A stretch of 64,000 bases of DNA from Paracoccaceae bacterium (GTDB lineage: Bacteria; Pseudomonadota; Alphaproteobacteria; Rhodobacterales; Rhodobacteraceae). Location: the NCBI GenBank assembly GCA_003605175.1, contig QWDA01000006.1, positions 62,001-126,000 on the forward strand, written 5' to 3'. Under the pieces are notes generated by a model. That model was not told the origin of the DNA. It was given only the letters and a program-made list of their open reading frames with translations, and did not search any database. Positions 7,974 to 31,653 of this stretch are shown one piece after another. Within the stretch, counting starts at the first letter, position 1. Each line of letters begins with the position of its first letter. Position numbers and translations under genes: made by a program.

Positions 7974-8411
7974 CGACCCAATCCTACATACAACAAACAC
8001 TTGCTACCGAAGAGCCCAATGGCCGCAGCTGGCCAGTGCACAGCGCTCTTCATCATTACATCTCTGGTATGAAACCTGCCCGAAAAACGAAAGCCCGACA
8101 CCATACTCGAATCTCCCTTTTACAAATCCCACCCACGCCGGGATGCCACATCGAAATTCTCTGCCGCGGGATTGGACCCGCTTTGCCGCCAATCGCGGCC
8201 AGACCAAATCAATCGTTAACAGATTACCGCAAGATTAAGTCAAAATCGTGGCAGAGCCAGCGGCAATACAACCTGTGAGTGATTTTATCCCCACGCTTCA
8301 TCGCAGGGCTGCATCGCGAAACCGGTTGTTTCAGATCGCCGTGCAATCCACCCGGCGGCGAAAATGAGCCCGGTTAGACGTGAATTGTCGCCGACTCACC
8401 TTGCGCCCCGG
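7974..8411. other. AT-richer intergenic stretch before the helicase gene
   Basis: About 440 bases without a supportable gene, of lower GC than the flanks. It must hold the promoter of the leftward Hint gene and the 3' end region of the helicase transcript. I see no convincing terminator, tRNA or promoter pair in it. Confidence 0.5.
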
Positions 8412-10835: not shown

Positions 10836-11029
10836 CGCGCCAAAGGTAACGTGAACTCGAGACATACGAAAGAGCATGTTCGCAAATTGTTCCGCACAAT
10901 GTCGCAACCCTTCCCGATCTCGTCGTTGGCGCAGCGACCAAGCCAAAAGACCCCGTTTACCCCATCTGGGGAACGCACTAGTTTTTTTCTGCGCCTGCAA
11001 AGAAGACGCCACATACCAGGGGACGGGGA

Positions 11030-14000
11030 ATGGCCGAGTTCAAGAAGATCCTGATCGCCAACCGGGGCGAGATCGCAATCCGCGTGATGCGGGCGGCAAA
11101 CGAGCTCGGCAAGCGCACCGTCGCGGTCTATGCCGAAGAGGACAAGCTCTGCCTGCACCGGTTCAAGGCTGACGAGGCCTACAAGATCGGCGAGGGGATG
11201 GGGCCGGTGGCTGCATACCTGTCCATCGACGAGATCATCCGGGTCGCCAAGATGTCGGGCGCCGACGCGATCCATCCGGGCTACGGGCTCTTGTCGGAAA
11301 ACCCCGCCTTCGTGGATGCCTGCGCGAAGAACGGCATCACCTTCATCGGCCCGAAGGCCGAGACGATGCGGGCGCTCGGCGACAAGGCCTCGGCGCGGAA
11401 GGTGGCGATCGCGGCCGGCGTGCCGGTGATCCCGGCGACCGAGGTGCTGGGCGATGACATGGAGGCGATCGCCAAGGAGGCCGAGGAGATCGGCTATCCC
11501 TTGATGCTGAAAGCCTCCTGGGGAGGCGGCGGGCGCGGGATGCGGCCGATTCAGAAGCCCGAAGAGCTGGTCGAGAAGGTCAAGGAGGGCCGCCGCGAAG
11601 CCGAGGCCGCGTTCGGCAACGGCGAGGGCTATCTGGAAAAGATGATCCTCAAGGCCCGCCACGTTGAGGTGCAGATCCTCGGCGACAGGCAGGGCAACAT
11701 CTATCACCTCTGGGAGCGGGACTGCTCGGTCCAGCGGCGGAACCAGAAGGTGGTGGAGCGAGCCCCTGCCCCGTATCTCTCCCCGGCCCAGCGCGAGGAG
11801 ATCTGCGGCCTCGGAAAGAAGATCGCCGAGGCGGTGAACTACGAGTGCGCCGGCACCATCGAGTTCCTGATGGATATGGCCACGGGCAAGTTCTACTTCA
11901 TCGAGGTGAACCCGCGGGTGCAGGTCGAGCATACCGTCACCGAAGAGGTCACCGGCATCGACATCGTCCGCGCACAGATCCTGATCGCCGAGGGCAAGTC
12001 GCTGGTCGAAGCCACCGGGACGGCAACGCAGGACGATGTGCGGCTCACGGGCCACGCGATCCAGTGCCGGATCACCACCGAGGACCCGCAGAACAACTTC
12101 ATCCCCGATTACGGCCGGATCACCGCCTATCGCGGCGCCACCGGCATGGGCATCCGGCTCGACGGCGGCACCGCCTATTCGGGCGCGGTGATCACCCGCT
12201 ACTACGATTCGCTCCTTGAGAAGGTGACCGCCTGGGCGCCGACGCCGGAGGCCGCCATAGCGCGGATGGACCGGGCCCTGCGCGAGTTCCGGATTCGCGG
12301 CGTGTCGACGAACATCGCCTTCGTCGAGAACCTTCTGAAGCACCCGACCTTCCTCTCGAACGAATACCACACCAAGTTCATCGACCAGACGCCCGCGCTG
12401 TTCGAATTCGCGCCGCGCCGCGACCGGGCAACGAAGATCCTGACCTATATCGCCGACATCACCGTGAACGGGCATCCGGACGTGGCCGGCCGGCCGCGGC
12501 CGCCGGCGAAGCTGAAGCTGCCCGTGCCACCGAAACCGGCGGCCGATGCTCCGGCCCGCGGCACCAAGCAGATCCTCAACGAGCAGGGGCCGCAGGCGGT
12601 GGCCGACTGGATGGCCGCGCAGGACCGACTGCTGATCACCGACACGACCATGCGCGACGCGCCGCAATCGCTGCTGGCCACCCGGATGCGCTCGCTCGAC
12701 ATGATCAAGATCGCGCCGAACTACGCCCATGACCTGCCTGGGCTGTTCTCGGTCGAATGCTGGGGTGGCGCCACCTTCGACGTGGCCTACCGGTTCCTGC
12801 AGGAATGCCCCTGGCAGCGGCTGCGCGACCTGCGGGCGGCGATGCCGAACCTGATGACGCAGATGCTGCTGCGCGGCTCGAACGGGGTCGGCTACACGAA
12901 CTATCCCGACAATGTGGTGCAGGCCTTCGTGAGGCAGGCGGCCGAGACCGGGATCGACCTGTTCCGCGTCTTCGACCCCTTGAACTGGGTCGAGAACATG
13001 CGGGTCTCGATGGATGCGGTTCTGGAAAGCGGCAAGGTGCTGGAAGGCGCGATCTGCTACACCGGCGACATCCACGACCCGGACCGGGCGAAGTACGATC
13101 TGAAGTACTATGTCGCGATGGGCAAGGAGCTTAAGGCGGCCGGCACCCATATCCTCGGGTTGAAGGACATGGGCGGGCTGGTGAAGCCACGCGCGGCCAC
13201 GGCGCTGGTGAAGGCGCTGAAGGAAGAGGTCGGCCTGCCGATCCACTTCCACACCCACGACACGGCGGGGATCGCCTGCGCCTCGATCCTGGCCGCGGCC
13301 GATGCCGGTGTGGACGCGGTGGATTGCGCGATGGACGCACTCTCGGGCAACACCAGCCAGGCGACGCTGGGCACGCTGGTCGAGGCCATGAAGGGCACCG
13401 AGCGCGAGACCGGGCTCGACATGGGCGCGATCCGGCGGATCTCCAACTACTGGGAGCATGTGCGCGAGCACTACGCGGCCTTCGAGAGCGGAATGCAGTC
13501 GCCCTCTTCCGAGGTCTATCTGCACGAGATGCCGGGCGGGCAGTTCACCAATCTCAAGGCGCAGGCCCGCTCGATGGGGCTCGAGGACCGCTGGCACGAG
13601 GTGGCGAGGACCTATGCCGACGTGAACCAGCTCTTCGGCGACGTGATCAAGGTGACGCCGATCGCAAAGACCGTGGGCGACCTCGCCCTGATGCTGGTGA
13701 GCCAGGGCATGACCACCGATGACCTGATGGGCTCGAAGGCCGATTTCGCCTTCCCCGACAGCGTGATCACGCTGATGAAGGGTAATGTGGGCCAGGCCCA
13801 TGGCGGCTTCCCGCCCGCCGTGGTCAAGAAGGTGCTGAAAGGCGAGGAGCCGATCACCGTGCGCCCGGGTTCGCTTCTGGAACCCGCCGACATGGAGGCC
13901 GAGCGCAAGGCGCTGGCGGCACGTTTTGAGGAAGAGATCGATAGCGAGGACCTGAACGGCTACATGATGTATCCCAAGGTCTTCACAGACTACATGGAGC

Positions 14001-15287: not shown

Positions 15288-15348
15288 ACGCAATTTTCCT
15301 CTTGCAGCGCCCCCCGAGAGTTTATATCTCCGCCCTCACCCAATGGAC

Positions 15349-15423
15349 GCGGGCGTAGCTCAGGGGTAGAGCATTACCTTGCCAAGGTAAGGGTCGTGAG
15401 TTCGAATCTCATCGCCCGCTCCA
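15349..15423 (+). tRNA. tRNA-Gly (anticodon GCC)
   Basis: The cloverleaf is complete: acceptor stem GCGGGCG pairs with CGCCCGC, the D-arm contains AGCTCAGGGGTAGAGC, the anticodon stem-loop is TTACCTTGCCAAGGTAA with anticodon GCC, and the T-arm is GTGAGTTCGAATCTCAT. The 3' CCA is encoded at 15421-15423. It marks the left edge of the rearranged region. Confidence 0.97.
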
Positions 15424-15599
15424 ATAAAATCAACGACTTGCGCTGTTGTTGTCTCTCGCAACATTCACCAAAACAAGGCGGTTTCACCCCTCGAAGTGTG
15501 AACGCCTGACGCCAAGGGCTTTCGGTGATTCCCGTAGGTGGGTGGCAAGGTGCTTCGGGCTAGGCCCTCGCTCCTAGCAAAGGCTTCGCCTTGCTGGAG

Positions 15600-15624
15600 T
15601 GCTCTACCCCTGAGCTATGCCCGC
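15600..15624 (-). repeat. Inverted partial copy of the tRNA-Gly 5' end
   Basis: On the minus strand, GCGGGCATAGCTCAGGGG and the following TAGAGCA match the first 25 bases of tRNA-Gly at 15349 except for one G-to-A change. The anticodon arm and 3' half are missing, so it is not a functional tRNA. It lies in inverted orientation 176 bases downstream of the intact tRNA. Such fragments are typical left-overs of element integration at tRNA genes. Confidence 0.85.
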
Positions 15625-15793
15625 GTCTGTTGAGGGGATGCCCTGCAACGTCATCCTGCGCGAGGTCGAGGGCGGCGCGGAGGTCGGCGCAATCGACCCG
15701 GTCGCCTCCATGCAGGCGATCGAGAACGCCGAGCTGCACACCGTTGCGGGCCAGGTCCGCGATCTCCTGGCGGAGGCCGTCGCGGCGGTTTGA
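15617..15793 (+). pseudogene. C-terminal remnant of a DUF302 family protein
   Basis: 58 codons, of which the last 52 read MPCNVILREVEGG, then DPVASMQAIEN and ELHTVAGQVRDLL. This matches the C-terminal half of DUF302 proteins, where a [ML]PCNVV-type motif and DP-x-A-M are conserved. The N-terminal half is absent: the frame runs upstream straight into the inverted tRNA fragment. It is therefore a truncated gene, cut at the junction between the tRNA-like sequence and older coding DNA. Confidence 0.65.
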
Positions 15794-16113: not shown

Positions 16114-17619
16114 GTGTCCGGCCGGGACAGGCGGAGTACACATTTGGCCCAGGGTTTCAATTCGGGTTTCCACTTCCTGACCGTGGCGAGGCGGCAGCCC
16201 TCCGGCACCGCGCTCAGCGACGAGGCGCGAGTGGTGAGTTATGCCGAGTTCGCCGATATCACGCTCCTTTCGGCGCTCCACATGGACCGGGCCGGCGTGC
16301 GCCCGGGCGATCTTGTGGGCGTCCGCACCGAGGATCCGGCGGTGCTCCTCTCGACGCTCCTCGGCTCGGCCTTTCTCGGCGCGCGCTGGGTCTCCGTGGC
16401 GCCCGGCCTTGGCGATCTACTCCGGCCGAAAGTGACGCATTTCTTCACCAGTACAGAAGACGGCCGAGAAGACTGGCGGAACGTCCACGTGGTCGATGGG
16501 CGCTGGTCGCGGCTGCCCGAGGGCACCGCCCCCGACGCGGTGGGGCGGCTGCCCGGGGCGACCGATCCCGATGCGGTCTGGATCGTATCGCCCACTTCGG
16601 GCACCACCGGCACGCCGAAGCTCGTCGGGTTGTCACACCGGGTCGTGACCCGCAGGAACGCGGCCAACGCCGCCTGGTTCGACGCGCCGGGCCGCAAGGT
16701 GGCGGGACTCTTTCCGATGGGCGCTCCGGCCGCGATTTCGCGCCATCTCGCGGCTCTGGTCCACGGCGGCGAGGTAGTGGCCGCAGTCGAGCCAGTGGCG
16801 CTGCACCGGCTGGGCGTCGATCACGTGTTCGGTTCGCCCGCGCAGGTGCAGCAGGTGTTCGGCGGCCTCGTCCTGCCTGCGAAGCTGCCGCTCATCCACC
16901 TCTTGGGCGCCACTGCGCCGGAACAACTCGTCCGGCATCTCCTGAAATCCTTCGAGCGCGTGGCGAACGGCTATGGCTCCACCGAGGCGCATAACAGCCT
17001 CTCGACGTACCGCTTCCTGAGCACAGACGGCACGCTCGGCGCCCGCACCGAGCCGCGCCCCGGCGTGGCGGTCGAGATCGTCGACGAGGCCGACCTTGTG
17101 CTGCCGAGGGGCCGCGAAGGCATCGTGCGGATCCGCAGTGACCGGCTGGCCGACGGCTATCTCGACAACCCGGCGGCCAGCGCCGCCGCGTTCCGCGAGG
17201 GCTGCTTCTATCCGGGCGATCTCGGGCTCTGGACCGAGGCGGGCGATTTCGTGGTGACCGGGCGGGTGAACGACCAGTTCAACCTCGGCGGTGTGAAGCT
17301 GAACGCGGCGCTCCTCGACTTCACGCTCCAGAACCTTCCTGGCATCGAGGACGCGGTGAGCTTCCTCCTGCCCCGGCCAGACGGCAGCCAGTCGCTCCGC
17401 GCCATGGTCCGGCTCGCCCAGGGCGTGGAAATCGACCAGGTGCTGGCCGAGGCTAGGGTCGCACTGATCCGGGTCGGCGGGCGCGACGCCGTGCCGGAGA
17501 AGTTCCTCTTCGCCGACGAAGTGCCGCGCAATGCCCATGGGAAGCCCGACCGCGCGGCCTGCATCAGCGCCGTTCTCGACGCCAAGGAGATGGGTAAGGC
17601 GGGAAATTCTCCGAAATAA
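16114..17619 (+). CDS. AMP-binding (ANL superfamily) adenylate-forming enzyme 1
   Basis: About 500 residues. There is no early ATG in the frame; GTG codons at 16108 and 16114 and TTG at 16144 are possible starts, so the 5' end is uncertain. ANL motifs are SPTSGTTGTPKLVGLSHR (phosphate loop), NGYGSTEAHN (A5), PGDLGLWTEAGDFVVTGR (A7/A8) and NAHGKPDR with the catalytic lysine near the C-terminus. It should activate a carboxylic acid with ATP and pass it to CoA or another acceptor; the substrate is unknown. The hinge reads FNLGGVK, similar to the other two ANL enzymes here. It is followed by an outer-membrane protein gene. Confidence 0.8.
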   Translation: MSGRDRRSTHLAQGFNSGFHFLTVARRQPSGTALSDEARVVSYAEFADITLLSALHMDRAGVRPGDLVGVRTEDPAVLLSTLLGSAFLGARWVSVAPGLGDLLRPKVTHFFTSTEDGREDWRNVHVVDGRWSRLPEGTAPDAVGRLPGATDPDAVWIVSPTSGTTGTPKLVGLSHRVVTRRNAANAAWFDAPGRKVAGLFPMGAPAAISRHLAALVHGGEVVAAVEPVALHRLGVDHVFGSPAQVQQVFGGLVLPAKLPLIHLLGATAPEQLVRHLLKSFERVANGYGSTEAHNSLSTYRFLSTDGTLGARTEPRPGVAVEIVDEADLVLPRGREGIVRIRSDRLADGYLDNPAASAAAFREGCFYPGDLGLWTEAGDFVVTGRVNDQFNLGGVKLNAALLDFTLQNLPGIEDAVSFLLPRPDGSQSLRAMVRLAQGVEIDQVLAEARVALIRVGGRDAVPEKFLFADEVPRNAHGKPDRAACISAVLDAKEMGKAGNSPK

Positions 17620-17738
17620 TGGGCGCTTGTCTGTGGCGTCGGGGCTACTTCGGCATAAATCGCGGGGCCGCGGCACGGAAAGGATTCCCTGACCGCCGAA
17701 AATGGGCGATGAAGAAAACGAATGAAGGAGACGACTCC

Positions 17739-18338
17739 ATGACGACGAATCGGATCTCGGACTATGCGCTGTTCGGCGGCGCGGCGCTCGCGATGGGCGC
17801 AGTCGGGGCGTCGGATGCCGGTGCGCAAGGCGTCGACGGGTTTTATGGCGGCCTGTCCCTCGGATTGGCCGATGCCGACAACTACATCGGCAACAGCAGC
17901 GAGTACAATTTCACCGGGGCGGCCGCCGGGGCCTTCGTCGGCTACAACGTGTCGCTGCAGGGTTTCGTCGTTGGCGGCGAATTGAGCTACGTCGATGAAT
18001 ACAAGGTCGATGACAACGGCGGCTCTTTCTACCTGAACATGGGGCTCGCGCATGTGACCGAGCTGCGCGGCCGGGTCGGCAAGGTGTTCGGCTCGACCTT
18101 CGCCTACGGGCTCCTAGGCTACACGAAGGCCGATGCCTATACCGAGGGCACCGAAGGGGTGAATTCCGACGCGCAGGGTCTGTCCTACGGAGTCGGCTTC
18201 GAACATCCCCTCGGGAGCAACATGTTCATCGGCGGTGAGATCGTGCGCCAGGATCTCGATGTCGATGACCATGTCTACGTGTACGACAACAGTCTGAAGA
18301 TGGACACTGCCTCGATCCGCTTCGGTCTGCGCTTCTGA
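17739..18338 (+). CDS. Outer-membrane beta-barrel protein
   Basis: 199 residues. The start ATG at 17739 is set by GAAGGAG about nine bases upstream; an in-frame ATG at 17709 lacks one. The N-terminus (NRISDYALFGGAALAMGAVGA) resembles a signal peptide ending near DAGAQG, although it lacks the usual basic pair. The mature part alternates polar and hydrophobic residues in Gly/aromatic-rich strands (GFYGGLSLGLADA, AGAFVGYNVSLQGFVVGGE, FAYGLLGYTKADAY) and ends in RFGLRF with the terminal Phe typical of barrel insertion. It belongs to the OmpA-like/porin-family small barrels. An intrinsic terminator follows. It could be the outer-membrane route for the substrate of the nearby transporter, which is inference. 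Confidence 0.8.
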   Translation: MTTNRISDYALFGGAALAMGAVGASDAGAQGVDGFYGGLSLGLADADNYIGNSSEYNFTGAAAGAFVGYNVSLQGFVVGGELSYVDEYKVDDNGGSFYLNMGLAHVTELRGRVGKVFGSTFAYGLLGYTKADAYTEGTEGVNSDAQGLSYGVGFEHPLGSNMFIGGEIVRQDLDVDDHVYVYDNSLKMDTASIRFGLRF

Positions 18339-18362
18339 CCGTCGCTGTCGCGCCGAGCAAGG

Positions 18363-18388
18363 AGGCCGGACCACGGGTCCGGCCTTTT
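18363..18388 (+). terminator. Intrinsic terminator after the barrel protein
   Basis: A perfect 10-bp stem, AGGCCGGACC and GGTCCGGCCT, closes a three-base loop ACG and is followed by TTT on the plus strand. It sits between the convergent ends of the barrel gene and ANL enzyme 2. Confidence 0.9.
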
Positions 18389-18392
18389 CGTA

Positions 18393-19817
18393 TCAGACCT
18401 TCGCGATGCGGCGGTGGAGCGCCTCGGTGTCGATCTTGCCGGTCGCCGTGACCGGAAGCGTTGCGAGGCGCTCCAGGTGGATCGCGGTGATGCCCACGAA
18501 ATCCTTTTCCAGCACCCGGCGGAGTTCGCCGCCGTCGAGCTCGGACTCGCCGGTATAGAACAGCGCGAGCCGTTCCAGCCCCTTGGCGTCTGGCACCACC
18601 AGGGGCACGAAGCGGCGGCCGGGAAATGCCGTTTCCAGCGCCGCCGAGACGGTTTCGAGCGCGTATTTGTTGCCGCCGAAATTGATGATGTTCTTGATCC
18701 GGCCAACATAGAAATAGCCCAGGTCGGAGCGGCGCAGGATGTCACCGGTCAGGATGAAATCCCGCTCCTCCTCGTCCGCAAGATAGTGCCGCTTGCGCGC
18801 CGGATCGGTGAAGCGGATGCCGAGGACGCCCTCGCTCGCCTCGTCGGGGAGGAGCGCGCCCTTTTCGTCGAAGAACCTTAGGTCGAGATCGTCGCGCAGC
18901 GGGCTGCCGACGAACCCGGCCGGCGGCGGTGCCTTCGGGTCGATCTGCGAGGTCAGGATCGGGCCAATTTCGGTCGTGCCGTAGCCGATATGAATCCGCG
19001 CCTCGCAGATTTCGGCGAATTCGCGGGTCATCTCGGGCGACATCAGAGAACCGCCGATCCGGATATCGCGCACCGAACTGAGGAACTGCCCGGCATCGGG
19101 GATCTCGAGCAGCCGGCCGATCACCGCCGGTGTCGTGGCCAGCGCGTCGACGCGGTAGAGGTCGATATAGGCCGGGAGCTTGTCGGCCTCGGCGGTGAGC
19201 GACAACACGCTGCCGCCCTGGAGGAGCGTCGCGAGATTGGTGCTGAGCGCCCAGCCGGTCCAGGGCGACAGCGTCGAGCAAAACCGGCGTCCCGCGAGCG
19301 ACACGCCGCGATAGCCAGCACCGTATTGCAATGTCCCGATCCGCTCCTCCTCGGTGCCAACCACCAGTTTCGGGCGCCCGGTGGTGCCCGAAGACTGGGT
19401 GATGAAGCGCCCGCCGCCACCCAGCCGTTCGAAATCGGGCGGCGGGTAGCTCCCCAGCGCCGAGAACCAGCCCTGCTCGATCACGATCTGCCGCTCGGGG
19501 TCCACATCGTCGCGCGGCGTGCTGGTGATCACCCGGTCGAAGGCCAGCTCCGCTTCGGTCGCCTGCTTCGCCGTGGTGAAGGCGACGGAGAGGCCGCGGA
19601 GGCTCAGGACGAGCGCCATGGCGAGGCAGAACTCGGCCCGTGCTCTGTCGAGCACCAGGGTCTGGCCCGGCCGCACGCCGCGCCCGTGAAGCTCGATGTC
19701 GAGGAGTGTCACCAGGTCGAGAAGGTCGCCATAGCTCATCTGGCTCTTCTCGGTCAGAAGCGCGATCTGCTTGGGGCGCGTCCGGGCAGTCCGGGCGAAT
19801 TCGGCGATCAGGCTCAT
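18393..19817 (-). CDS. AMP-binding (ANL superfamily) adenylate-forming enzyme 2
   Basis: 474 residues from MSLIAEFARTARTRPKQIAL. Motifs are ITQSSGTTGRPKLVVG (phosphate loop), HIGYGTTEIGPI (A5), FILTGDILRRSDLGYFYVGR (A7/A8), IINFGGNKYALETV (hinge) and VTATGKIDTEAL with the C-terminal catalytic lysine. It is divergent from ANL enzyme 3, with 104 bases between the two starts that must hold both promoters. Together with the ANL enzymes on either side it forms a three-gene set around a carboxylate transporter. Substrate and acceptor are not evident; a CoA ligase is the default expectation. Confidence 0.82.
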   Translation of the reverse strand: MSLIAEFARTARTRPKQIALLTEKSQMSYGDLLDLVTLLDIELHGRGVRPGQTLVLDRARAEFCLAMALVLSLRGLSVAFTTAKQATEAELAFDRVITSTPRDDVDPERQIVIEQGWFSALGSYPPPDFERLGGGGRFITQSSGTTGRPKLVVGTEEERIGTLQYGAGYRGVSLAGRRFCSTLSPWTGWALSTNLATLLQGGSVLSLTAEADKLPAYIDLYRVDALATTPAVIGRLLEIPDAGQFLSSVRDIRIGGSLMSPEMTREFAEICEARIHIGYGTTEIGPILTSQIDPKAPPPAGFVGSPLRDDLDLRFFDEKGALLPDEASEGVLGIRFTDPARKRHYLADEEERDFILTGDILRRSDLGYFYVGRIKNIINFGGNKYALETVSAALETAFPGRRFVPLVVPDAKGLERLALFYTGESELDGGELRRVLEKDFVGITAIHLERLATLPVTATGKIDTEALHRRIAKV

Positions 19818-19921
19818 GGCATTGCGTCCCCGCATTCGTGCTTCGGTGTCTCCCGGGCCCCGGCTGCTTGATGGCGCCGATGATCCAAGATAGCGTGCCG
19901 CGACTTCGGCGGAGCATTGCG

Positions 19922-21397
19922 GTGAATGACACACTTTCTCAGCGCATTGAAGAGAGCTGCGCCGCCTTCGCCGACCGGCCGTTCTCGGTGGACGGGGCCG
20001 GGACCGTGCTCACATTCGGCCAGCTTTTCCTGACCCTGCTCGCCTTTTCCGAACGGCTTTCGGCGCGCGGAATCGGCGAAGGGCAGCGGGTGGCGCTGGC
20101 GGTGGATGACATGGTCCTGTCCATGCTCCTCCGTCTCGCGCTGCTCCGTCTCGGGGCGACGGTGCTGCCCGGGACCCGCGCGGTTCTGTTGGCCCGGCAC
20201 GGCGTTGCGGTCGACTGGGGCCTCCGTCCGGGTACGGAAGATCTGGGGCCGGGCGAGATCGGCGTCGACGCTGCCTGGTTCGCCCCGCCGCACCGGGCGC
20301 TGCCGGTCTCGGGCAAGGGCCGCATCGTGAGGACCACCTCGGGCACGACCGGCACGCCGAAACTCCGGGTGGTGGACGAGGCAGGGCTCCTGGCCCGGGT
20401 CGAGCACGGGCTGCGGGAGCGCGGTGCGCCCGAGGGCCCGGCCTATATCGGCTATGCCGCAGGCTCGAACCCGGGCTTCAACATGTTCTGCCGGGTGCTC
20501 GTTTCAGGTCAACTCCAGCTCTACCAACAGGCCACGCCGACGCACTCGCTGGCGCAGATGGCACGGTTCGGCGCCGTAGTTGCTTACCTGCCGCCTGGTG
20601 CGTATTTCGGGCTCTGTGAAGCGCGCGAGTCCGGCGCGCCCCGGCCCGAACGCTTGGCGGCGCTCCAGGTCGGCGGCGGCGGCCTCTCTCCAGCGGTGGC
20701 TGCAAGGGGAGAGGCGTTGTTCGGCTGCCCGGTCCTGAACTCCTTCGGCTCGAACGAGACCGGCTCGCTCGCCCTGCATCGGGTCACCGACACGCAAGGG
20801 GAAACCGGCGTGGTCGGCCGGCTCTACCCGGGCTTCGCGATCCGCTTCGAGGACGATCTGGGCCGCGAGATGCCTGCAGCGGAAGGCGGGCATATCCGGA
20901 TCCGCGTGCCTGAGTCGCTCAGGGTCTGCGAGTACCCGTCGCTTGCGCCGGTCGCGGATTCCGACGGTTGGGTCTCCACGGGCGATATGGGCCGGGTCGG
21001 CGCAGACGGGCTCCTCCGGCTGACCGGCCGGCGCTCGGAGCTTCTCAATCTCGGCGGCGACAAGATCGCGCCCTCCCGTTTCGAGGCCATCGCCGAGGCG
21101 CATCCCACGGTGCGCGCTGCCGCGGCCTTTCGCGCGCCCAATCCTGACGGCGCCGACGATGTGGGCCTCGCGATCCTGCCCGGCGCCGGGTTCGACGCCG
21201 AGGACCTCGGGCGCTGGATGGCCGCGCGGGTGGCGAACCCCTACCGCTTCCACATCGCGACGCACCGCGCCCTACCGCTTACCAGCGCGGGCAAGATCGA
21301 CCGAAAGCGGCTCACCGAGGATTTCGTCGCCGCGGCCACCCAACCCGAACCACCAGCAAGCCGGGCCAACCGGCAAATCGAGGAGACAGAGAGATGA
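19922..21397 (+). CDS. AMP-binding (ANL superfamily) adenylate-forming enzyme 3
   Basis: 491 residues from a GTG start (VNDTLSQRIEESCAAFADRP) preceded by CGGAG at a suitable distance; ATGs at 19871 and 19880 would give a longer form without a clear ribosome-binding site. Motifs are RTTSGTTGTPKLRVVDEAG, NSFGSNETGSL at the A5 position, STGDMGRVGADGLLRLTGRR, LLNLGGDKIAPSRFE and LTSAGKIDRKRL with the catalytic lysine. The stop overlaps the start of the TctC gene by four bases, so the enzyme and the uptake system are co-translated. That coupling suggests it activates the imported carboxylate. Confidence 0.85.
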   Translation: MNDTLSQRIEESCAAFADRPFSVDGAGTVLTFGQLFLTLLAFSERLSARGIGEGQRVALAVDDMVLSMLLRLALLRLGATVLPGTRAVLLARHGVAVDWGLRPGTEDLGPGEIGVDAAWFAPPHRALPVSGKGRIVRTTSGTTGTPKLRVVDEAGLLARVEHGLRERGAPEGPAYIGYAAGSNPGFNMFCRVLVSGQLQLYQQATPTHSLAQMARFGAVVAYLPPGAYFGLCEARESGAPRPERLAALQVGGGGLSPAVAARGEALFGCPVLNSFGSNETGSLALHRVTDTQGETGVVGRLYPGFAIRFEDDLGREMPAAEGGHIRIRVPESLRVCEYPSLAPVADSDGWVSTGDMGRVGADGLLRLTGRRSELLNLGGDKIAPSRFEAIAEAHPTVRAAAAFRAPNPDGADDVGLAILPGAGFDAEDLGRWMAARVANPYRFHIATHRALPLTSAGKIDRKRLTEDFVAAATQPEPPASRANRQIEETER

Positions 21398-22362
21398 AAT
21401 TTCTGAAGGCGCTGACCGCCTGCGCGCTTGTGATGCCGCTTGCCACCCAAGCCGCCGAGACCGTGACCATCGAGGTGGGCTATTCGCCGGGCGGCTCCTA
21501 CGACGCCATCGCGCGGCTGGTGGCCGACCATCTGGGCGACCATCTCGACGGCCACCCGACGGTGGTGGTCGAGAATGTGCCTGGCGCGGGCAGCCTGAAG
21601 CTCGCCAAGATGGTGATTCAGGACGGAAGCGGCGCGCGGATCGCCACGGTGAGCTCGGCCTTGGCCCTGCGGCCGATCTTCGAGCCCGACGAGACCGATT
21701 TCGACCCGCGCAAGGCCCAGTATCTCGCCAGCCTCTCGAACGGCGCTTCCTATTGCGTGGCGCATCCGGATTCGGGGATCACGTCGCTCCAGGAGTTCCT
21801 CGACGATCCCGATGCCAAGGCCGGCGCTTCCGGCAAGGGCAGCACGACCTACACCTATCCGGCCGCGATCAAGGCGGCGCTGGGCGGCAAGTTCCAGGTG
21901 GTCACTGGCTTCAAGGGCGGCGCCGAGATCGGGCTCGCAATGGAGCGCGGTGAGATCCAGGTGCGCTGCGGCATCGGCCAGGCCTCGCTCCAGCCGGGTA
22001 CGCCGGGCGAGGGGTTCGTGGTAATCGCCGAGCTTTCGCCGGAGCCGCGGCACGAGTTCGAAGGCGTCGATTTTGCGCTCGACTTCGCGCCGTCCGAGAA
22101 CCGCGAGGCGCTGAAGCTGGTCTTCTCCTCGGGTGCGGTGCATCACCCTTTCCTGGTCGGCCCCGACGTACCGGCCGAGCGTGTCGAGGAGCTTCGCGCC
22201 GCCTTCACCGCCCTGGCGGAGGACCCGGCCTTCCTTGCCGACGACGAGACCCGCAGGACCTTCACCCACATCACCCCGGGGGCGGAGGTCGAGGCGCTGA
22301 TCGACGGGTTCCTCGCGGCGCCCGAGGCGGTTCAGGCCCAGGCCCGCGCCTTCGTCGAATAG
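21394..22362 (+). CDS. Tripartite tricarboxylate transporter substrate-binding protein (TctC family)
   Basis: 322 residues with an N-terminal signal peptide (MKFLKALTACALVMPLATQA, then AETV). After it comes the TctC/Bug fold start TIEVGYSPGGSYDAIARLVAD and PTVVVENVPGAGSLKLAK. Bug proteins bind carboxylates such as citrate, tricarballylate or aromatic acids in the periplasm and deliver them to TctA/TctB. It overlaps ANL enzyme 3 by four bases and precedes the membrane component by 12 bases. The actual ligand is unknown. Confidence 0.92.
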   Translation: MKFLKALTACALVMPLATQAAETVTIEVGYSPGGSYDAIARLVADHLGDHLDGHPTVVVENVPGAGSLKLAKMVIQDGSGARIATVSSALALRPIFEPDETDFDPRKAQYLASLSNGASYCVAHPDSGITSLQEFLDDPDAKAGASGKGSTTYTYPAAIKAALGGKFQVVTGFKGGAEIGLAMERGEIQVRCGIGQASLQPGTPGEGFVVIAELSPEPRHEFEGVDFALDFAPSENREALKLVFSSGAVHHPFLVGPDVPAERVEELRAAFTALAEDPAFLADDETRRTFTHITPGAEVEALIDGFLAAPEAVQAQARAFVE

Positions 22363-22374
22363 ACGGCCCGCCCC

Positions 22375-24291
22375 GTGGACATCTTCCTCGAGGCGATTCA
22401 GGCGCTGTTCGAGCCCATGCGGCTCGGGATGCTGGTCCTCGGGGTGGTCACCGGGCTGGTGATCGGTGTCATTCCGGGCATCGGCGGGGTCTTCGGGCTG
22501 ACGCTTCTCGTACCGCTCACCTACACGCTCGACCCGGTGGCGGCCTTCGCGCTGTTGCTCGGCATGTCGTCCGTCACCACCACGTCCGACACGATCCCGG
22601 CTGTGCTCCTCGGCGTGCCGGGAACCGTGGGCTCCGCCGCCACCGCGATTGACGGGCACGAACTCGCCAAGCAGGGCCAGGCCGACCGCGCCATCGGTGC
22701 CGCATATCTCGCCTCGATGATCGGCGGGCTTCTCGGTGCGCTGCTCCTCGCCCTCTCCCTGCCGGTCATCAAGCCTCTGGTCCTCCTCCTGAACTACGGC
22801 GATCTCTTCGCGATCACGCTTTTCGGCCTCACGCTGGTCTCGCTCCTTTCGGGAGGCAACCAGTTTCGCGGCCTCTTTGCGGCGCTCCTCGGCATCCTGA
22901 TCTCCTTCGTCGGGCTCGACCCCTATGAGAGCGCCGAGCGCTGGACCTTCGGCGAGATCTATCTCTGGGACGGCATCCCCACACCGGTCTTCTTCCTCGG
23001 CATCTTCGGCCTCTCGGAGCTCACCGGTCTGATCGCGCGCGGTCGGATCCAGCACAGCGCCGCAGCCCCCGCACCGGGCGGCATGCTGCGGGGTATGCGC
23101 GAGGCTCTGGCGAACTGGCCCAGCGTGTTCCGCTACAGCGCCATGGGGGCGCTTCTCGGCGCGGTACCGGGCGTCGGCGTGACGGTGATCGAATGGATCG
23201 CCTATGGCGACGCCGCGCGGCGAAAGGGTGACGGTCCGGATTTCGGGAAGGGCAATATCCGCGCGGTGATCGCGCCCGAAAGCGCCAACAACGCCAAGGA
23301 AGGCGGCGCGCTCCTGCCGACGCTCGCCTTCGGCGTACCGGGCTCGGCGACCATGGCGGTACTGCTCGGCGCGCTCGCGATCCACGGGCTTGTGCCGGGG
23401 CCCCGGATGCTCGCCGACAACGCCCCCCTCATGGTGACGATGATCCTCACCATCGCGCTCGCCAATGTGATCGGGACCGGCATCTGCCTGGGCCTCACTC
23501 CGGCGCTCGCCCGCATCGCCCAGGTGCCGGCCACCCGACTGGTGCCGCCTGCGCTCGTGTTCGTGGTGCTTGGCGCCTATCAGTCCAATCTCGACCTGCG
23601 CGACCTTCTGGCGCTCTTCGCCTTTGGCGCGCTTGGCATCCTCTTCAAACGCTTCGGCTGGTCGCGGCCCGCGCTGGCACTCGGCTTCGTGCTCGGGCCC
23701 AATCTCGAGCGGTTCTTCTTCCTATCCTACCAGATTTCCGGCTGGTCCTGGCTGGCGCAGCCTCTCGTCCTCGCCATGGCGGCGGTGATCGCGGCGACTC
23801 TTCTCCGCCAACTCGCGGGCTGGCGCCGGGGCCGCAAGGCCAGCGCGCCCGACCCCGCGCCCCGGAGCAATCTCGCGCTGGTGCTGGCACTGGTCTTCGC
23901 GGTCGCGGCGGCGCTTTTCTCGACCTTCGCCATGCCCTTCGCGACCGGCCTCTTCCCGCGCATCGCCGCCATCGCCGGCACGATCCTCGGCGCTGGCCTC
24001 CTCGGGCAGGCGTTCAGCAACCGCACTGCCGCGCCCGCACAGGGCACCCTGGCCGGGGTCCGCGGCGATTTCCGCGTGCTGGGATTGGGCATCCTTTTTT
24101 CGGTTCTCCTCCTCGCCCTCGGGCTGGTCGCCGTGCCGCTCTTCCTCATCGCCGCCGGCATTCGCTACAAGGTTCCTCTGCGGCCCAACCTCCTCGGTGC
24201 GGCTTCCGTCACGGCGGCGGCCTTCGCAGTGTTTCGCGTGCTCGCCAGCAACACCTGGCCCGAGCCCTTCTTCGCTCGCCTCCTGCCCTGA
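22375..24291 (+). CDS. Tripartite tricarboxylate transporter permease, TctA-TctB fusion
   Basis: 638 residues from a GTG start. The first 500 or so form the large TctA permease: VTGLVIGVIPGIGGVFGLTL, the conserved PES-type segment IAPESANNAKEGGALLPTLAFGVPGS, and many membrane helices. After a basic linker with GWRRGRKASAPDPAPRS, about 150 residues with four further helices (NLALVLALVFAVAAALFSTF and others) correspond in size and layout to the small TctB subunit, normally a separate protein. This explains why no tctB gene is present. It forms the inner-membrane part of the uptake system with the preceding TctC protein. Confidence 0.87.
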   Translation: MDIFLEAIQALFEPMRLGMLVLGVVTGLVIGVIPGIGGVFGLTLLVPLTYTLDPVAAFALLLGMSSVTTTSDTIPAVLLGVPGTVGSAATAIDGHELAKQGQADRAIGAAYLASMIGGLLGALLLALSLPVIKPLVLLLNYGDLFAITLFGLTLVSLLSGGNQFRGLFAALLGILISFVGLDPYESAERWTFGEIYLWDGIPTPVFFLGIFGLSELTGLIARGRIQHSAAAPAPGGMLRGMREALANWPSVFRYSAMGALLGAVPGVGVTVIEWIAYGDAARRKGDGPDFGKGNIRAVIAPESANNAKEGGALLPTLAFGVPGSATMAVLLGALAIHGLVPGPRMLADNAPLMVTMILTIALANVIGTGICLGLTPALARIAQVPATRLVPPALVFVVLGAYQSNLDLRDLLALFAFGALGILFKRFGWSRPALALGFVLGPNLERFFFLSYQISGWSWLAQPLVLAMAAVIAATLLRQLAGWRRGRKASAPDPAPRSNLALVLALVFAVAAALFSTFAMPFATGLFPRIAAIAGTILGAGLLGQAFSNRTAAPAQGTLAGVRGDFRVLGLGILFSVLLLALGLVAVPLFLIAAGIRYKVPLRPNLLGAASVTAAAFAVFRVLASNTWPEPFFARLLP

Positions 24292-24457: not shown

Positions 24458-24578
24458 CTCAAGGCCGTAATCGAGGCGATCGGCGCCGGCCATCCCCAAA
24501 GCCAGATCGATGATCTCCTGCCGTGGAACTTCAAGCCGTCAAGCTAAACCCTGACGGTGCGCAGACGCCGCTTGCGAT
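24458..24578 (+). mobile_element. IS66-family transposase C-terminal remnant with right end
   Basis: The frame ending at 24547 reads HLKAVIEAIGAGHPQSQIDDLLPWNF and then KPSS and stop. This matches the C-terminus of IS66 transposases, where H-P-x-[ST]-x-I-D-[ED]-L-[LM]-P-W is characteristic. Just after it, GACGGTGCGCAGACGCCGCT (24554-24573) resembles the inverted end of IS66 elements, read outward. The rest of the transposase is missing, so this is a deletion scar and not an active element. Confidence 0.65.
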
Positions 24579-24720: not shown

Positions 24721-27447
24721 TCACTCGGCTTTGACCACGCGCAACGGTCTGCTCTGCAGGACCCTGTTGCCCTGGTTCATGACGTAACGGATCTCGTAGT
24801 CGCCGGGCACATCGGGGACCGCGATCTTCGCCGGATTGCCGCGATTTGCATACACATAGCTGGTGTAGCGATCCGCGCCGACGGCCGCGATGGTGATCAG
24901 GTCGTTCTGGTATTCCGGACCGTCATGCGCCACTTCCAGCGTGGTTCCGGCCGGTGCGCTGTCCGGCGCCGCGAGGGTCACCGACAGGTCGGCGACCTCG
25001 ATAGCCGTTGTGTCGAGCACCTTTCCGTCCTGGTTCATGACATAGCGGATCTCGTAGATTCCCGGCTCCGGTGGCATCCGGAGCTTCAGGGGAGTCCCCT
25101 CGCGCGTGTAGCTGTAGTTCACGTAGCGCGAGTCGCCCGGCTCGCCGACCGCGACATAGTCGTTGCGGTAGTCCGGGCCGCTCCAGGCGACCTCGATCGT
25201 CTCGCCGACGACGGCACTTCCGGGCGCCGCGATCTCCGCCGAAACCCCGGTCACCGCAATGGCGCGCGCCGCAAGAACCGTCTTGTCCTGCGCGAGGACG
25301 TAGCGCAGTTCGTAGTCGCCCGGCTCGGTCGGCAGGGTGAGATCGAGCGGTGAGCCCTCGCGGGTATAGGTGTAGTTCACGTAGCCGTCGTCGTCCGGCG
25401 CGGCCACGGCGATATAGTCGTTCGCATAGTCCGGACCTTCCCAGGACACCTCGACCTCGCTTCCGGCGGTGGCGGTGTCGGGGGCGACCAGTGTCGCGCC
25501 CACTGCCTCGAGCACGATCTTTTGCGTCGCGATGACGGTGCGGTCCTGGGCCAGTACATAGCGCAGTTCGTATTCGCCGGTGTCGGTCGGCAATCGCAAT
25601 GCGAGCGGCGAGCCCTCGCGGGTGTAGGTATAGCCCTCGTAGCCGTCCTCGCCCGGCTTCGCGACCGCGATGTAGTCGTTCCGGTAATCCGGGCCTTCCC
25701 AAGCCACCTCCAGATCCGACCCGGCCGCGGCGGTCCCGGGCGCGACCAGACGGGCCTCGACCGGCGTCACAATGACCGGGCGCGTCGCCAGAACCTTCCG
25801 GTCCTGACTCGCCACATAGCGGATCTCGTAGTCACCCGGCTCGACAGGCATCATCAGCGCGGCAGGGGTGCCGTCGCGGGTATAGGTGTAGTTGATGCTC
25901 TGGTCTTCGTCCGGTTCGCCGACCGCGATGAAGTCGTTCTGGTAGTCGGGCCCGTCCCAGGCGACTTCGACTGTCGCGCCCGCTACTGCCGTATCCGGGG
26001 CGGCCAGCGTGGCCCCCACATCGGTCACCTCGATCGGCCGCGTCGCGAGAACGTAGCGGTCGGTCTGCATGACATAGCGTAGCTCGTAGGTGCCGGGCTC
26101 GACCGGCATGGCCAGCTTCAGCGGACTACCCTCGCGGGTCAGCGTGTGGTTGATCTGCGTCTTCGAGCCCGGTTCGGCGACCGCGATGTAATCGGGTTGG
26201 TACCCCGGACCCTCCCAGGCGATCTCGACGGTTGCGCCGGCGATGGCCGTCTCGGGCGCGTCGAGCGTCGCCTCGGCCGGCGTCACCTCTAGCACCCGCG
26301 TGGCGAGGATCTGGCTGCCCTGACCGAGAACGTAGCGCAGCTCATAGCTCCCCGGTGTCGACGGCGCGCGAAGCTTCGCCGGGTTGCCGTCGCGGACCGG
26401 CGTGTTGGTCGCGTAAGTGCCCTTGCCCGGATCGCCGGCGACGATGAAATCGTTCGAAGCCCCGGGCCCTTCCCAGGCGATCTCGACGGTCGACCCGGCC
26501 ACCGCAGTTTCCGGCGCAATCAGCGTTGCCACCGGCTGCGGTTTCTCGAAGATCAGGGAGACGACGCGCGCAGTCGCGCCGAGCACCGAGATGTTGGCGG
26601 TCACCGTCTGCTCGGCCACCGACCAGGTTCCGGTCACCTCATAGGCGCCCGCGGCGAGTTCGAGCGAGAGCGGGTTGGCGGCGGCTCCAGCCTCGAATCC
26701 CTCCGGCGCGGGTGTGATTTGCCAGAACACCGGATCGGTGATCCGCGGCCCGTTCTCGCCGATCACCGCCTCAAGGGTCATCGGCGTCAGCACGGGCTCG
26801 GGCTCGGGTTCGGGCGCGGGCTCCGGAACGGCGACGGCGACCTGAGTCAGCGCCTCGGTCAGCTCGCTCGCGTTCGAGGCCGACAGGAACACACCACCGG
26901 TCTCCTCCGCCAGGCACTGAAGCTGGCCGATCGCCTCGGCATCGCTGACATCGAAGCCGACCACATGCACGGTCAGTTCCGCCCCGGCCGCTTCGAGCGC
27001 ACGGGCGGCGGCACAGGGATCCGGCGCGCAGGTCTCGATCCCGTCCGAGACGAGCACCACCGTGGCCGGCGCGTCCAGATAGTCCAGCGCCTCGGCGGCT
27101 GCCGTGACCGCATCGGTCATCGGCGTCTTGCCGCGCGGATTGATGCCATTCACCGCGTCGATGATGGCGCCGGAGGTGCCCGCATCCGGCGCGACCACCG
27201 TTTCGATATCGGTGCAGTCGCCCTCGGTCCGGTGACCGTAGACGGTGAGCCCGAGGCCCTGATCGTCGGGAAAGTCCCGGAGGATGCCCGCCACCGCCTC
27301 GCGGGCGATGACGATCTTGTTGACGCCGTCGATCTGTCCCCACATCGAGCCGGACCCGTCGAGAACCAGGATCGTGTTCGGCCGATCTTGGGCCGCAACC
27401 GCGATAGGCAGGAAGAGGGCAGCGAACAGAACGACAAAACGGGTCAA
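24721..27447 (-). CDS. Secreted VWA-domain protein with seven tandem repeats
   Basis: 908 residues from a TTG start (LTRFVVLFAALFLPIAVAAQ, a clean signal peptide) preceded by GGGAGG at seven bases; the ATG further upstream would add 16 residues and spoil the signal. The VWA domain has an intact MIDAS: DGSGS at 30-34, GKTPMTDA, and LVSDGIETC. After a Pro/Glu linker (PEPAPEPEPEPV), about seven repeats of roughly 85 residues run to the C-terminus, each with APxTAxAGxxxEVAWxGP, NDxIAV, TREGSPLKL and YELRYV-type blocks. The repeats look like Ig-like beta domains. It is probably periplasmic or surface-exposed and metal-dependent in binding; ligand unknown. No operon partner is apparent. Confidence 0.85.
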   Translation of the reverse strand: MTRFVVLFAALFLPIAVAAQDRPNTILVLDGSGSMWGQIDGVNKIVIAREAVAGILRDFPDDQGLGLTVYGHRTEGDCTDIETVVAPDAGTSGAIIDAVNGINPRGKTPMTDAVTAAAEALDYLDAPATVVLVSDGIETCAPDPCAAARALEAAGAELTVHVVGFDVSDAEAIGQLQCLAEETGGVFLSASNASELTEALTQVAVAVPEPAPEPEPEPVLTPMTLEAVIGENGPRITDPVFWQITPAPEGFEAGAAANPLSLELAAGAYEVTGTWSVAEQTVTANISVLGATARVVSLIFEKPQPVATLIAPETAVAGSTVEIAWEGPGASNDFIVAGDPGKGTYATNTPVRDGNPAKLRAPSTPGSYELRYVLGQGSQILATRVLEVTPAEATLDAPETAIAGATVEIAWEGPGYQPDYIAVAEPGSKTQINHTLTREGSPLKLAMPVEPGTYELRYVMQTDRYVLATRPIEVTDVGATLAAPDTAVAGATVEVAWDGPDYQNDFIAVGEPDEDQSINYTYTRDGTPAALMMPVEPGDYEIRYVASQDRKVLATRPVIVTPVEARLVAPGTAAAGSDLEVAWEGPDYRNDYIAVAKPGEDGYEGYTYTREGSPLALRLPTDTGEYELRYVLAQDRTVIATQKIVLEAVGATLVAPDTATAGSEVEVSWEGPDYANDYIAVAAPDDDGYVNYTYTREGSPLDLTLPTEPGDYELRYVLAQDKTVLAARAIAVTGVSAEIAAPGSAVVGETIEVAWSGPDYRNDYVAVGEPGDSRYVNYSYTREGTPLKLRMPPEPGIYEIRYVMNQDGKVLDTTAIEVADLSVTLAAPDSAPAGTTLEVAHDGPEYQNDLITIAAVGADRYTSYVYANRGNPAKIAVPDVPGDYEIRYVMNQGNRVLQSRPLRVVKAE

Positions 27448-27817
27448 AGCAAATCCTCCCAACGATGCGGGAGATATGAACACAGGACAGCGCATTCTGA
27501 AACAGAAAGTCAGTCGCGGCCCGAACTCGTAGCCGAGCCGTTTCCGGCCCGTTTCTGCCGTTCAACGCGAGGTCCAATGCCGCGGCGCGGCTTCACCAAA
27601 CCGGCATTCAAGTGGCTTGCGGCGAAACGGGTTCGGCGAACTCACACTCAGCGGGACAAAGCTGACCCAGCGCTCGCTCATCGAATGGTTGCTTCCCGGT
27701 GGCTTGCGTGACAGCGAACTGAACCGGGCCAGCCTTAGTTGCCCTTGCTAGTGCAACCACGCAGGAATTGGCGTAGCACAACGACATTCCGGAATCTTTT
27801 TGCAGAGACAGCGCAGC
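27448..27817. other. Intergenic region with a possible operator
   Basis: 370 bases between divergent genes. It holds no recognisable gene. At 27745-27756, TTGCTAGTGCAA is an inverted repeat (TTGC-N4-GCAA), nested with a further GTTGC at 27738 and GCAAC ending at 27757. This resembles sites of small winged-helix regulators and lies 62 bases before the SDR start. Confidence 0.35.
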
Positions 27818-28591
27818 ATGGCATCAGGTCACAGAACGGCGATCGTAACGGGCGGACTGTCAGGGATGGGGCTTGCGATTGCACGCAGGCTTGCGCAGGA
27901 CGGCACGACCGTTGTGATCGGTGCGCGACGCGCAAGCGATGAAAGCCAGGTTCGCAGGATTCTTGGTGCGAATTCGGGCAAGCTTCACGCCGCAGGGTTG
28001 GACGTCCGGTCGCGCGAGAGCGTGGATGGCTTTGTCGCCGAAGTTGTAGAAACGCATGGTGGCGTCGATATCCTGATCAATGCGGCCGGTGTCTATGAAG
28101 AGGCCGCCGTGATCGATCATCCCGAACAGATCTGGGACGATCACATCGATACGAACCTGAGCGGCACATTCCGCATGATCCGGGCCGTGATGCCGCACAT
28201 GAAACGCAGGGGGTGGGGACGGATCATCAATATGGCGTCCGTCGCGGCGCATAACGGAATGGCGAACAACGCGGCCTATTGCGCCTCCAAGGCGGGGCTT
28301 CTGGGCCTGGGCCGCTGCGTGAGTCTTGAGGGTGCCGCCCATGGTGTCACCTGTGTTTCGATCAGCCCGACCTGGGTCGAGACCGAAATGCTCAGGCGCT
28401 TCATCGATGCCGACATGAAGGCGACAGGCCAGACCCTGGAGCAAGTGCGCGCCGAATATGCCAAGTCAAACCCTCAGAACCAGCTCGTTCAGCCCTCCGA
28501 AGTCGCGGAACTGGCTGCATTTCTGGCCAGCGATGCGGCCCGCGCTTTGACCATGGAAGATTTCCAGGTCAATGCCGGATCGCTTTGGTAG
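27818..28591 (+). CDS. Short-chain dehydrogenase/reductase (SDR)
   Basis: 257 residues, the classical SDR length. Cofactor site TGGLSGMG at residues 11-18 with basic residues after strand 2 (IGARRAS), which suggests NADP(H). The catalytic residues are Ser141, Tyr154 and Lys158 (NMASVAAHNG, AAYCASK), and the structural NAG element is INAAG. It is convergent with, and overlaps by 103 bases, the adenylation-reductase gene. That enzyme would release an aldehyde or alcohol, so the SDR may act on its product; this is inference from position. Base composition is slightly lower in GC than the surrounding core genes. Confidence 0.9.
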   Translation: MASGHRTAIVTGGLSGMGLAIARRLAQDGTTVVIGARRASDESQVRRILGANSGKLHAAGLDVRSRESVDGFVAEVVETHGGVDILINAAGVYEEAAVIDHPEQIWDDHIDTNLSGTFRMIRAVMPHMKRRGWGRIINMASVAAHNGMANNAAYCASKAGLLGLGRCVSLEGAAHGVTCVSISPTWVETEMLRRFIDADMKATGQTLEQVRAEYAKSNPQNQLVQPSEVAELAAFLASDAARALTMEDFQVNAGSLW

Positions 28592-31347: not shown

Positions 31348-31653
31348 GATACCTGCCCCTTCTTCTAGCCGCGCCCATAGCATTATCGGGTCGACAAGAC
31401 AGCCTGACTCTTCCCGTCCCGACGGCGCTGTGCGTTTGGTCGCACTCCGGACCGCGGGTCATCGTCAAGACCGACAGCGCATGGCGGAACCGCCCTCCTT
31501 CAACGCCGACCTTCGCCGCGCTACTGAACTCCCGTTTGTTTGGGCTCCGAGCCGACGTGCGGCGGCGCGGCATCCCGTGAATCGCGGGGGACTCGCAGTG
31601 TCGCTTGCGCCGGAGGTTGTGAGGAAACTCGGCCCTGACCGGCCCTTGATCCG
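31348..31653. other. Intergenic spacer
   Basis: About 300 bases between the reductase start and the end of the exported-protein pair. Short open frames interrupted by stops occur on both strands; none is recognised. No repeat or RNA gene is seen. Confidence 0.4.

Follow-up and report, generated by a model that had tools for sequence, protein, structure and literature searches.

Small outer-membrane barrels and acid-activating enzymes are known to share an operon in one case, the alk operon of Pseudomonas putida GPo1, in which AlkL, a small barrel of the eight-strand type, and AlkK, an acyl-CoA synthetase, belong to one uptake operon (PMC5376172). Tripartite tricarboxylate transporters (TTT) are solute-binding-protein-dependent secondary importers, mostly for carboxylates (PMC5812351), and in systems such as TphC/TpiBA for terephthalate and Bug27 a TctC-type protein with a PGGxxD loop is encoded together with a TctA-type subunit (PMC5812351, PMC8556258). 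Here I describe six intact genes at positions 16144-24291 of a 64,000-nucleotide stretch of DNA (hereafter the window; bases 62001-126000 of contig 32) from the 4.09 Mb genome of a Paracoccaceae bacterium. They encode three enzymes of the ANL adenylate-forming superfamily (ANL1, ANL2 and ANL3), a small outer-membrane beta-barrel, a TctC-type solute-binding protein, and TctAB, a fusion of the TctA membrane subunit with a putative TctB.

The alk operon is a precedent for this cassette in that a small barrel of the eight-strand type is encoded with an acyl-activating enzyme, but the barrel described here is OmpA-like (PF13505) and not OmpW-like, there are no alkane oxidation genes, and the cassette has three ANL enzymes and a TTT importer. 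It resembles the TTT systems in its TctC-type protein with a PGGxxD loop and its TctA-type subunit, but TctA and the putative TctB are fused, an arrangement described as rare (PMC5812351), TctC is marginal in its family, and the operon is headed by an ANL enzyme from a separate clade. EntE, DhbE and salicylate-AMP ligase are the best solved relatives of ANL2 and ANL3 and share with them the hinge N-x-G-G-x-K, although ANL2 and ANL3 score far below the TIGR02275 level, have no conserved aryl-binding Asn, and belong to a clade that excludes EntE. A preliminary description of this DNA knew of no described system with such a composition; my literature searches for TTT genes clustered with acyl-CoA synthetases or AMP-dependent synthetases, with subscription papers outside their coverage, found none either. 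The protein families are known but their conserved combination is new, and a previously unnoticed branch of the ANL enzymes is tied to an outer-membrane barrel. A surface barrel is not a usual companion of cytosolic enzymes that activate acids.

A rare cassette with a conserved gene order

The cassette was traced through 395 genomes sampled from the window's family, probably Rhodobacteraceae, mostly one per genus. Five genomes from different genera (G000, G016, G202, G366 and G325) have the same order and orientation, with ANL1, the barrel, ANL3, TctC and TctAB all facing one way and ANL2, between the barrel and ANL3, facing the other; BLAST of the window proteins on the individual loci places the identical arrangement at L007 in G016, L029 in G202, L030 in G366 and L031 in G325. 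All six genes are also present in G197 (L032), where an insertion splits ANL2 from the barrel. None of the flanking genes is common to the cassette loci compared, and therefore it is the six genes themselves that form the conserved unit.

Orthologues of ANL3 and TctC occur in the same 6 of the 395 genomes, both in each, and in none of the others. The cut between orthologues and remaining homologues is wide, with the six TctC orthologues at E-values of at most 2.6e-162 and the next match at 7.5e-93, and the six ANL3 orthologues at no more than 4.5e-224 and the next match at 4.3e-71. In all six genomes ANL3 and tctC run in the same direction, no more than about 25 bases apart. In the window ANL3, tctC and tctAB form a single run, joined by a 4-base overlap and then a 12-base gap; the overlap, which the preliminary description had remarked on, is real (ATGA), whereas in the other genomes the two genes lie about 14-25 bases apart, so that it is the operon and not the overlap that is conserved. 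Identity is modest across the five other genomes for ANL1 (35-48%) and ANL3 (36-43%) and somewhat higher for TctC (49-57%). Orthologues of ANL2 (38-51% identity) are found in six other genomes, among them G012, where ANL2 adjoins a barrel without ANL3 or TctC.

At E 1e-50 ANL2 has no match beyond the source genome in a class sample of 385 genomes, and a class-wide profile search with ANL1 and the tandem enzymes described below gave matches outside the family that were all much weaker (best 2.5e-65) and were kept out of the tree. A contig scan for relatives found distant ones only, in Pimelobacter and Nocardia, and plasmid searches with ANL1 and ANL2 gave no matches. The preliminary description would have counted a neighbourhood conserved nowhere as a refutation; the synteny search finds it conserved across genera. 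The six-gene unit is a genuine, rare and probably mobile cassette.

The position of the cassette in the genome bears on its mobility. Similarity to G140, the only congener compared, stops at 15447, just past a tRNA-Gly gene (Table 1), and the next 19.6 kb of G140 have no match to the window, so the congener carries none of the cassette there. About 230 bp downstream of the intact tRNA gene, at the border of the region that the congener lacks, part of the gene is repeated in inverted orientation, and a weak IS66 relic follows the cassette. In G197 a tRNA-Cys gene lies about 0.5 kb before ANL1. These features suggest that insertion beside tRNA genes and horizontal spread of the cassette are likely.

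An ANL branch that travels with a barrel

All three ANL proteins score well above the Pfam AMP-binding cut-off of 29.9 bits (Table 1). Their phosphate loop and C-terminal catalytic Lys are intact, as the preliminary description had read them, as are the A5 Glu and A7 Asp, and the same holds for all 19 orthologues. They are members of the ANL adenylate-forming superfamily, and from these motifs adenylation activity is predicted. Two further points of that description do not survive comparison. The N-x-G-G-x-K hinge, which it called unusual, is present but is also seen in E. coli EntE (INRGGEK) and salicylate-AMP ligase (INRGGDK), so it is not unusual; of 30 background ANL enzymes 4 carry the motif, and of the 11 other ANL enzymes of the source genome none does. 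Nor are the three enzymes products of a recent local duplication, because their pairwise identity of about 25-27% is too low for such an event and their stems in the tree are long; judged by their sequences, they are old paralogues.

They are nevertheless each other's relatives, and do not fall in distant, separately characterised ANL groups, an outcome that would have undone the original reading. In a mixture-model tree ANL1-3, the tandem ANL enzymes and the paired ANL3-like genes occupy one side of a branch (ultrafast bootstrap, UFBoot, 100; SH-like approximate likelihood ratio test, SH-aLRT, 98), with 23 other ANL enzymes, including EntE, EntF-A, FadD, CaiC and others of the source genome, on the opposite side. 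Another tree, with 41 other ANL enzymes, likewise placed ANL1-3 and the tandem genes together on one side (SH-aLRT 98.9). The outgroup sample is modest, and long-branch attraction could conceivably have contributed to the grouping. Within this clade ANL1, ANL2 and ANL3 each form their own well-supported group on a long stem.

Profiles built from the orthologues find their nearest solved structures among adenylation domains of non-ribosomal peptide synthetases (NRPS) and feruloyl-CoA synthetase for ANL1, EntE-type aryl-AMP ligases for ANL2, and salicylate-AMP ligase and oxalyl-CoA synthetase for ANL3. Assignment of ANL2 and ANL3 to the EntE/DhbE type was considered and rejected, as they score 65.0 and 71.9 bits against a TIGR02275 cut-off of 723.55 and EntE lies outside the clade in the tree. 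At the position of the aryl-binding Asn, which I take to be that of the amino-acid-binding Asp (235 in PheA), ANL2 of the window has Gly and ANL1 has Pro; ANL3 of the window has Asn there, in a poorly aligned loop, and its orthologues have Ser, Gly, Thr or Ala. Asp235 itself was not found in ANL1, ANL2 or ANL3, in which Pfam also gave no match to a PP-binding carrier domain. Single-sequence structure predictions (predicted local distance difference test, pLDDT, 31 for the barrel and 37 for ANL3) were discarded as useless.

The barrel matches OMP_b-brl (PF13505) above its cut-off of 28.7 bits, and its family profile aligns with the whole transmembrane domain of E. coli OmpA, its best solved relative. 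It is of the OmpA type by this alignment, and eight strands are expected; all copies end in Phe. There was no Pfam match to OmpW in the barrel, and OmpA was its only relative among solved structures. The loci of the ANL clade, which were selected by ANL similarity and not by the barrel, number 15. Six are six-gene cassettes and five are tandem-ANL loci; the others are one ANL2-barrel pair and three loci with a more distant ANL3-like gene. A search of these loci with the barrel profile found a barrel gene near the ANL genes in all 15, in several arrangements. The twelve best barrel matches in 17 genomes (E 3e-41 or better) are exactly those beside cassette or tandem ANL genes, and the genomes without the ANL clade that were searched contain no barrel match as strong. 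At the three remaining loci (L113, L114 and L115) a more distant ANL3-like gene lies directly 3' of a barrel gene, and as these barrels score no better than unlinked OMP_b-brl proteins, the evidence there is one of adjacency. At L113 (6152-10188) barrel, ANL, barrel and ANL follow in succession, an apparent duplicated pair.

TTT genes occur only in the six-gene arrangement, leaving nine of the 15 barrel-ANL loci without them. Since the barrel is present at all ANL-clade loci and the transporter in one arrangement only, the barrel tracks the enzymes and not the importer, and is more plausibly a partner of the former than of the latter. Of the "dedicated barrel" for uptake in the preliminary description, the barrel is thus there, but its uptake role is doubtful: it follows ANL genes even where no transporter is encoded, it is of the OmpA type, and a close TTT relative has no barrel.

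The tandem-ANL loci (L001 on contig 30 of the source genome, L033, L034, L035 and L036) each have between two and four consecutive ANL genes. Their enzymes are the sister group of ANL1 and adjoin a related barrel, but these loci differ from the cassette in having no TTT genes, other tailoring genes and mostly lysine-less enzymes. Of the 16 full-length tandem enzymes, 15 have Arg, Thr, Gly, Val, Ile or Asn in place of the C-terminal catalytic Lys while keeping the phosphate loop and other motifs. In L001 the run spans 8210-12577, and a further copy (8207) looks degenerate. In varying combinations these loci also encode Sulfotransfer_4, an NAD-dependent epimerase-type protein, a flavoprotein resembling 4-hydroxybenzoate-3-monooxygenase, and a flavin-containing monooxygenase (FMO). 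One of the epimerase-type proteins weakly matches the diazo-reductase AvaA7 (30.9 bits, where the cut-off is 400), and diazotase-like chemistry may on this basis occur at tandem loci (PMC10777205).

Gene layout, transporter and surroundings

Start sites were chosen by ribosome-binding site (RBS) and by alignment with orthologues (Table 1). ANL1 and the barrel gene share a direction, the barrel gene and ANL2 converge, and ANL2 and ANL3 diverge. A hairpin between the convergent genes, which was missing from the output of a simple terminator scan, is a probable terminator. The divergent spacer between ANL2 and ANL3 is 104 bp in the window and about 100-150 bp at orthologous loci.

Table 1. Features in and around the cassette (window positions unless a locus is named)
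Feature	Position	Strand	Details
tRNA-Gly (GCC), left edge of region missing from congener	15349..15423	+	ARAGORN
Partial inverted copy of tRNA-Gly 5' end	15600..15632	-	33-nt inverted repeat, 91% complementary to 15341-15373
ANL1, adenylate-forming enzyme	16144..17619	+	TTG start; GTG 16114 a weaker alternative; AMP-binding 110.7 bits
Small outer-membrane beta-barrel protein, signal peptide	17739..18338	+	OMP_b-brl 45.2 bits over positions 2-175; RBS AAGGAG; alternative start 17709
Hairpin and T-run, candidate terminator	18360..18388	+	RNA fold of 55-nt stretch -27.5 kcal/mol
ANL2, adenylate-forming enzyme, divergent from ANL3	18393..19817	-	AMP-binding 92.9 bits
Shared divergent promoter region, ANL2 / ANL3-tctC-tctAB operon	19818..19921	.	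104 bp; predicted by layout
ANL3, adenylate-forming enzyme	19922..21397	+	GTG start; ATG 19871 possible; AMP-binding 91.8 bits
TctC-type periplasmic solute-binding protein	21394..22362	+	TctC 28.2 bits
TctAB, fused TctA and putative TctB membrane subunits of TTT	22375..24291	+	TctA 386 bits, residues 17-434
IS66-type transposase C-terminus relic, just past cassette	24458..24526	+	DDE_Tnp_IS66_C, E 5.5e-5, below curated cut-off
Tandem-locus tailoring genes	L033:3-4904, L036:5316-16765, L034:1542-3472, L001:13419-14138		

The TctC protein is Bug27-like and keeps the PGGxxD loop as YSPGGSYD; in TctC-type proteins, for which the family motif PFxAGGxxD served as the comparison, this loop binds the proximal carboxylate (PMC8556258). 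The TctA part exceeds its cut-off of 28.9 bits by far and has both of the glycine-rich PGxG signatures expected in transmembrane segments 1 and 7 (TM1 and TM7; PMC5812351), as GVVTGLVIGVIPGIG in TM1 and a shorter GALLGAVPGVG in TM7. The putative TctB part follows TctA at the C-terminal end as a stretch of about 140 residues, most of them hydrophobic, with no match to Pfam TctB, and the fusion is found in all full-length orthologues (636-654 aa). The closest TTT relative without ANL genes (L116:5413-9769, in G079), which has no barrel beside it either, is 37% identical in TctC and 56% in TctAB; its genes are preceded by an enzyme of the mandelate-racemase/muconate-lactonizing type, a possible hint at hydroxy-acid substrates.

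Beyond the cassette, a single protein at 28489-31383 (minus strand) combines adenylation, carrier and thioester-reductase domains and resembles a carboxylate reductase or a one-module NRPS. The earlier remark that no dehydrogenase is near is therefore right for the cassette itself but overlooks this neighbour. It was rejected as a cassette member, being absent from the other loci and having an adenylation part that the ANL tree places outside the cassette clade. At 24721-27495 (minus strand) lies a von Willebrand factor A (VWA) domain protein of 924 residues with at least six internal repeats of 258 bp (86 residues).

What the cassette may do

My leading proposal, offered tentatively and with a little less than even confidence, is that the cassette is a horizontally distributed uptake-and-activation unit that serves a single carboxylic acid or a small number of them. 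TctC would capture a carboxylate in the periplasm, TctAB would import it by secondary transport, and ANL3, from the same operon, would activate the imported acid with ATP to an acyl-adenylate and pass the acyl group to an acceptor, most simply coenzyme A (CoA). ANL1 and ANL2, from their own promoters, would each activate another acid, which might belong to the same substrate class or derive from the first one. The barrel, as a functional partner of the ANL enzymes, may ease the passage of the acid or of its product through the outer membrane. The direction of transport, the carboxylate substrate, the CoA acceptor, the order of steps and the role of the barrel are all inferred. Because the ANL3 and importer genes form a single run in each of the six genomes, and given the TTT and TctC features, import followed by activation by ANL3 appears to be the best-supported reading. 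The intact adenylation motifs of the three enzymes, their lack of the Asp that binds the amino group in amino-acid-activating domains, and the precedent of AlkL with AlkK also speak for the proposal. Thus the uptake and activation proposed in the preliminary description find backing in the conserved unit, in the strict co-occurrence of ANL3 and TctC and in the import role of TTT systems (PMC5812351), while its arguments from the hinge and from duplication are lost and uptake through the barrel is doubtful. Several points weigh against an uptake-and-activation unit. The conserved unit has no catabolic enzyme after the ligases, so that any acyl-CoA would have to be used by the metabolism of the host; the barrel accompanies ANL genes at loci that lack a transporter and is not like OmpW or AlkL; the TctC family match is marginal (28.2 against 27 bits); and three ligases exceed what is needed for uptake and priming of one acid.

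A different and quite possible, if less probable, explanation is that the cassette is a biosynthetic or envelope-conjugation module. The ANL enzymes would activate acids and attach them to an acceptor, which could be an amine, a hydroxyl group, a carrier or a part of the envelope; the barrel would accept, display or export what they make, and the TTT of the six-gene version would do no more than supply a precursor. The constant barrel of the ANL clade (15 of 15 loci, nine without TTT) speaks for such a module, as do the lack of degradative enzymes in the cassette, the nearness of the ANL2 and ANL3 profiles to the free-standing aryl-acid adenylating enzymes of siderophore pathways, and the tailoring look of the sulfotransferase, epimerase-type protein, hydroxybenzoate-hydroxylase-like protein and FMO of the tandem-ANL loci. 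However, those tailoring genes belong to the tandem arrangement and not to the six-gene one, where no carrier protein, condensation, methyltransferase or glycosyltransferase gene is conserved and where the best-conserved membrane component is a transporter of the import type. It is also conceivable, but unlikely, that two independent units (ANL1-barrel-ANL2 and an ANL3-tctC-tctAB uptake operon) share a hot spot. The ANL2-barrel pair of G012 without ANL3 or TctC, the insertion that separates ANL2 from the barrel in G197, and a layout that puts ANL1 and the barrel on a separate transcript from ANL3 and the transporter would all be expected of such units, but all six genes occur together, in the same order, in six unrelated flanking contexts, and ANL3 belongs to the barrel-linked clade, its distant relatives directly adjoining a barrel gene. 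ANL and TTT genes are each common in such bacteria (the source genome has 20 AMP-binding matches), so ordinary acyl-CoA ligases could in principle have come to lie beside a TTT transporter by chance. I regard this as very improbable indeed: the order is kept in six genera with unshared flanks, ANL3 and TctC mark the same 6 of 395 genomes, and the ANL enzymes form a separate clade (UFBoot 100 / SH-aLRT 98). Conserved order and co-occurrence therefore already contradict a chance neighbourhood.

A bolder idea, which I consider doubtful, is that the ANL clade and the barrel together make up an envelope system of two parts that has gone unrecognised. In it, ANL enzymes in the cytosol would prime an acid, the barrel would receive, display or move the product, the TTT would have been added in the six-gene version, and the lysine-less tandem paralogues would use ready-made adenylates or carry out another reaction.

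Whichever role the cassette has, the neighbourhood becomes a testable unit, consisting of a strictly co-inherited rare cassette and an ANL branch defined by its linkage to a barrel, and that linkage is a handle for finding further members of the clade. The identity of the substrate would either add a new route of carboxylic-acid uptake in such bacteria or expose a new envelope chemistry.

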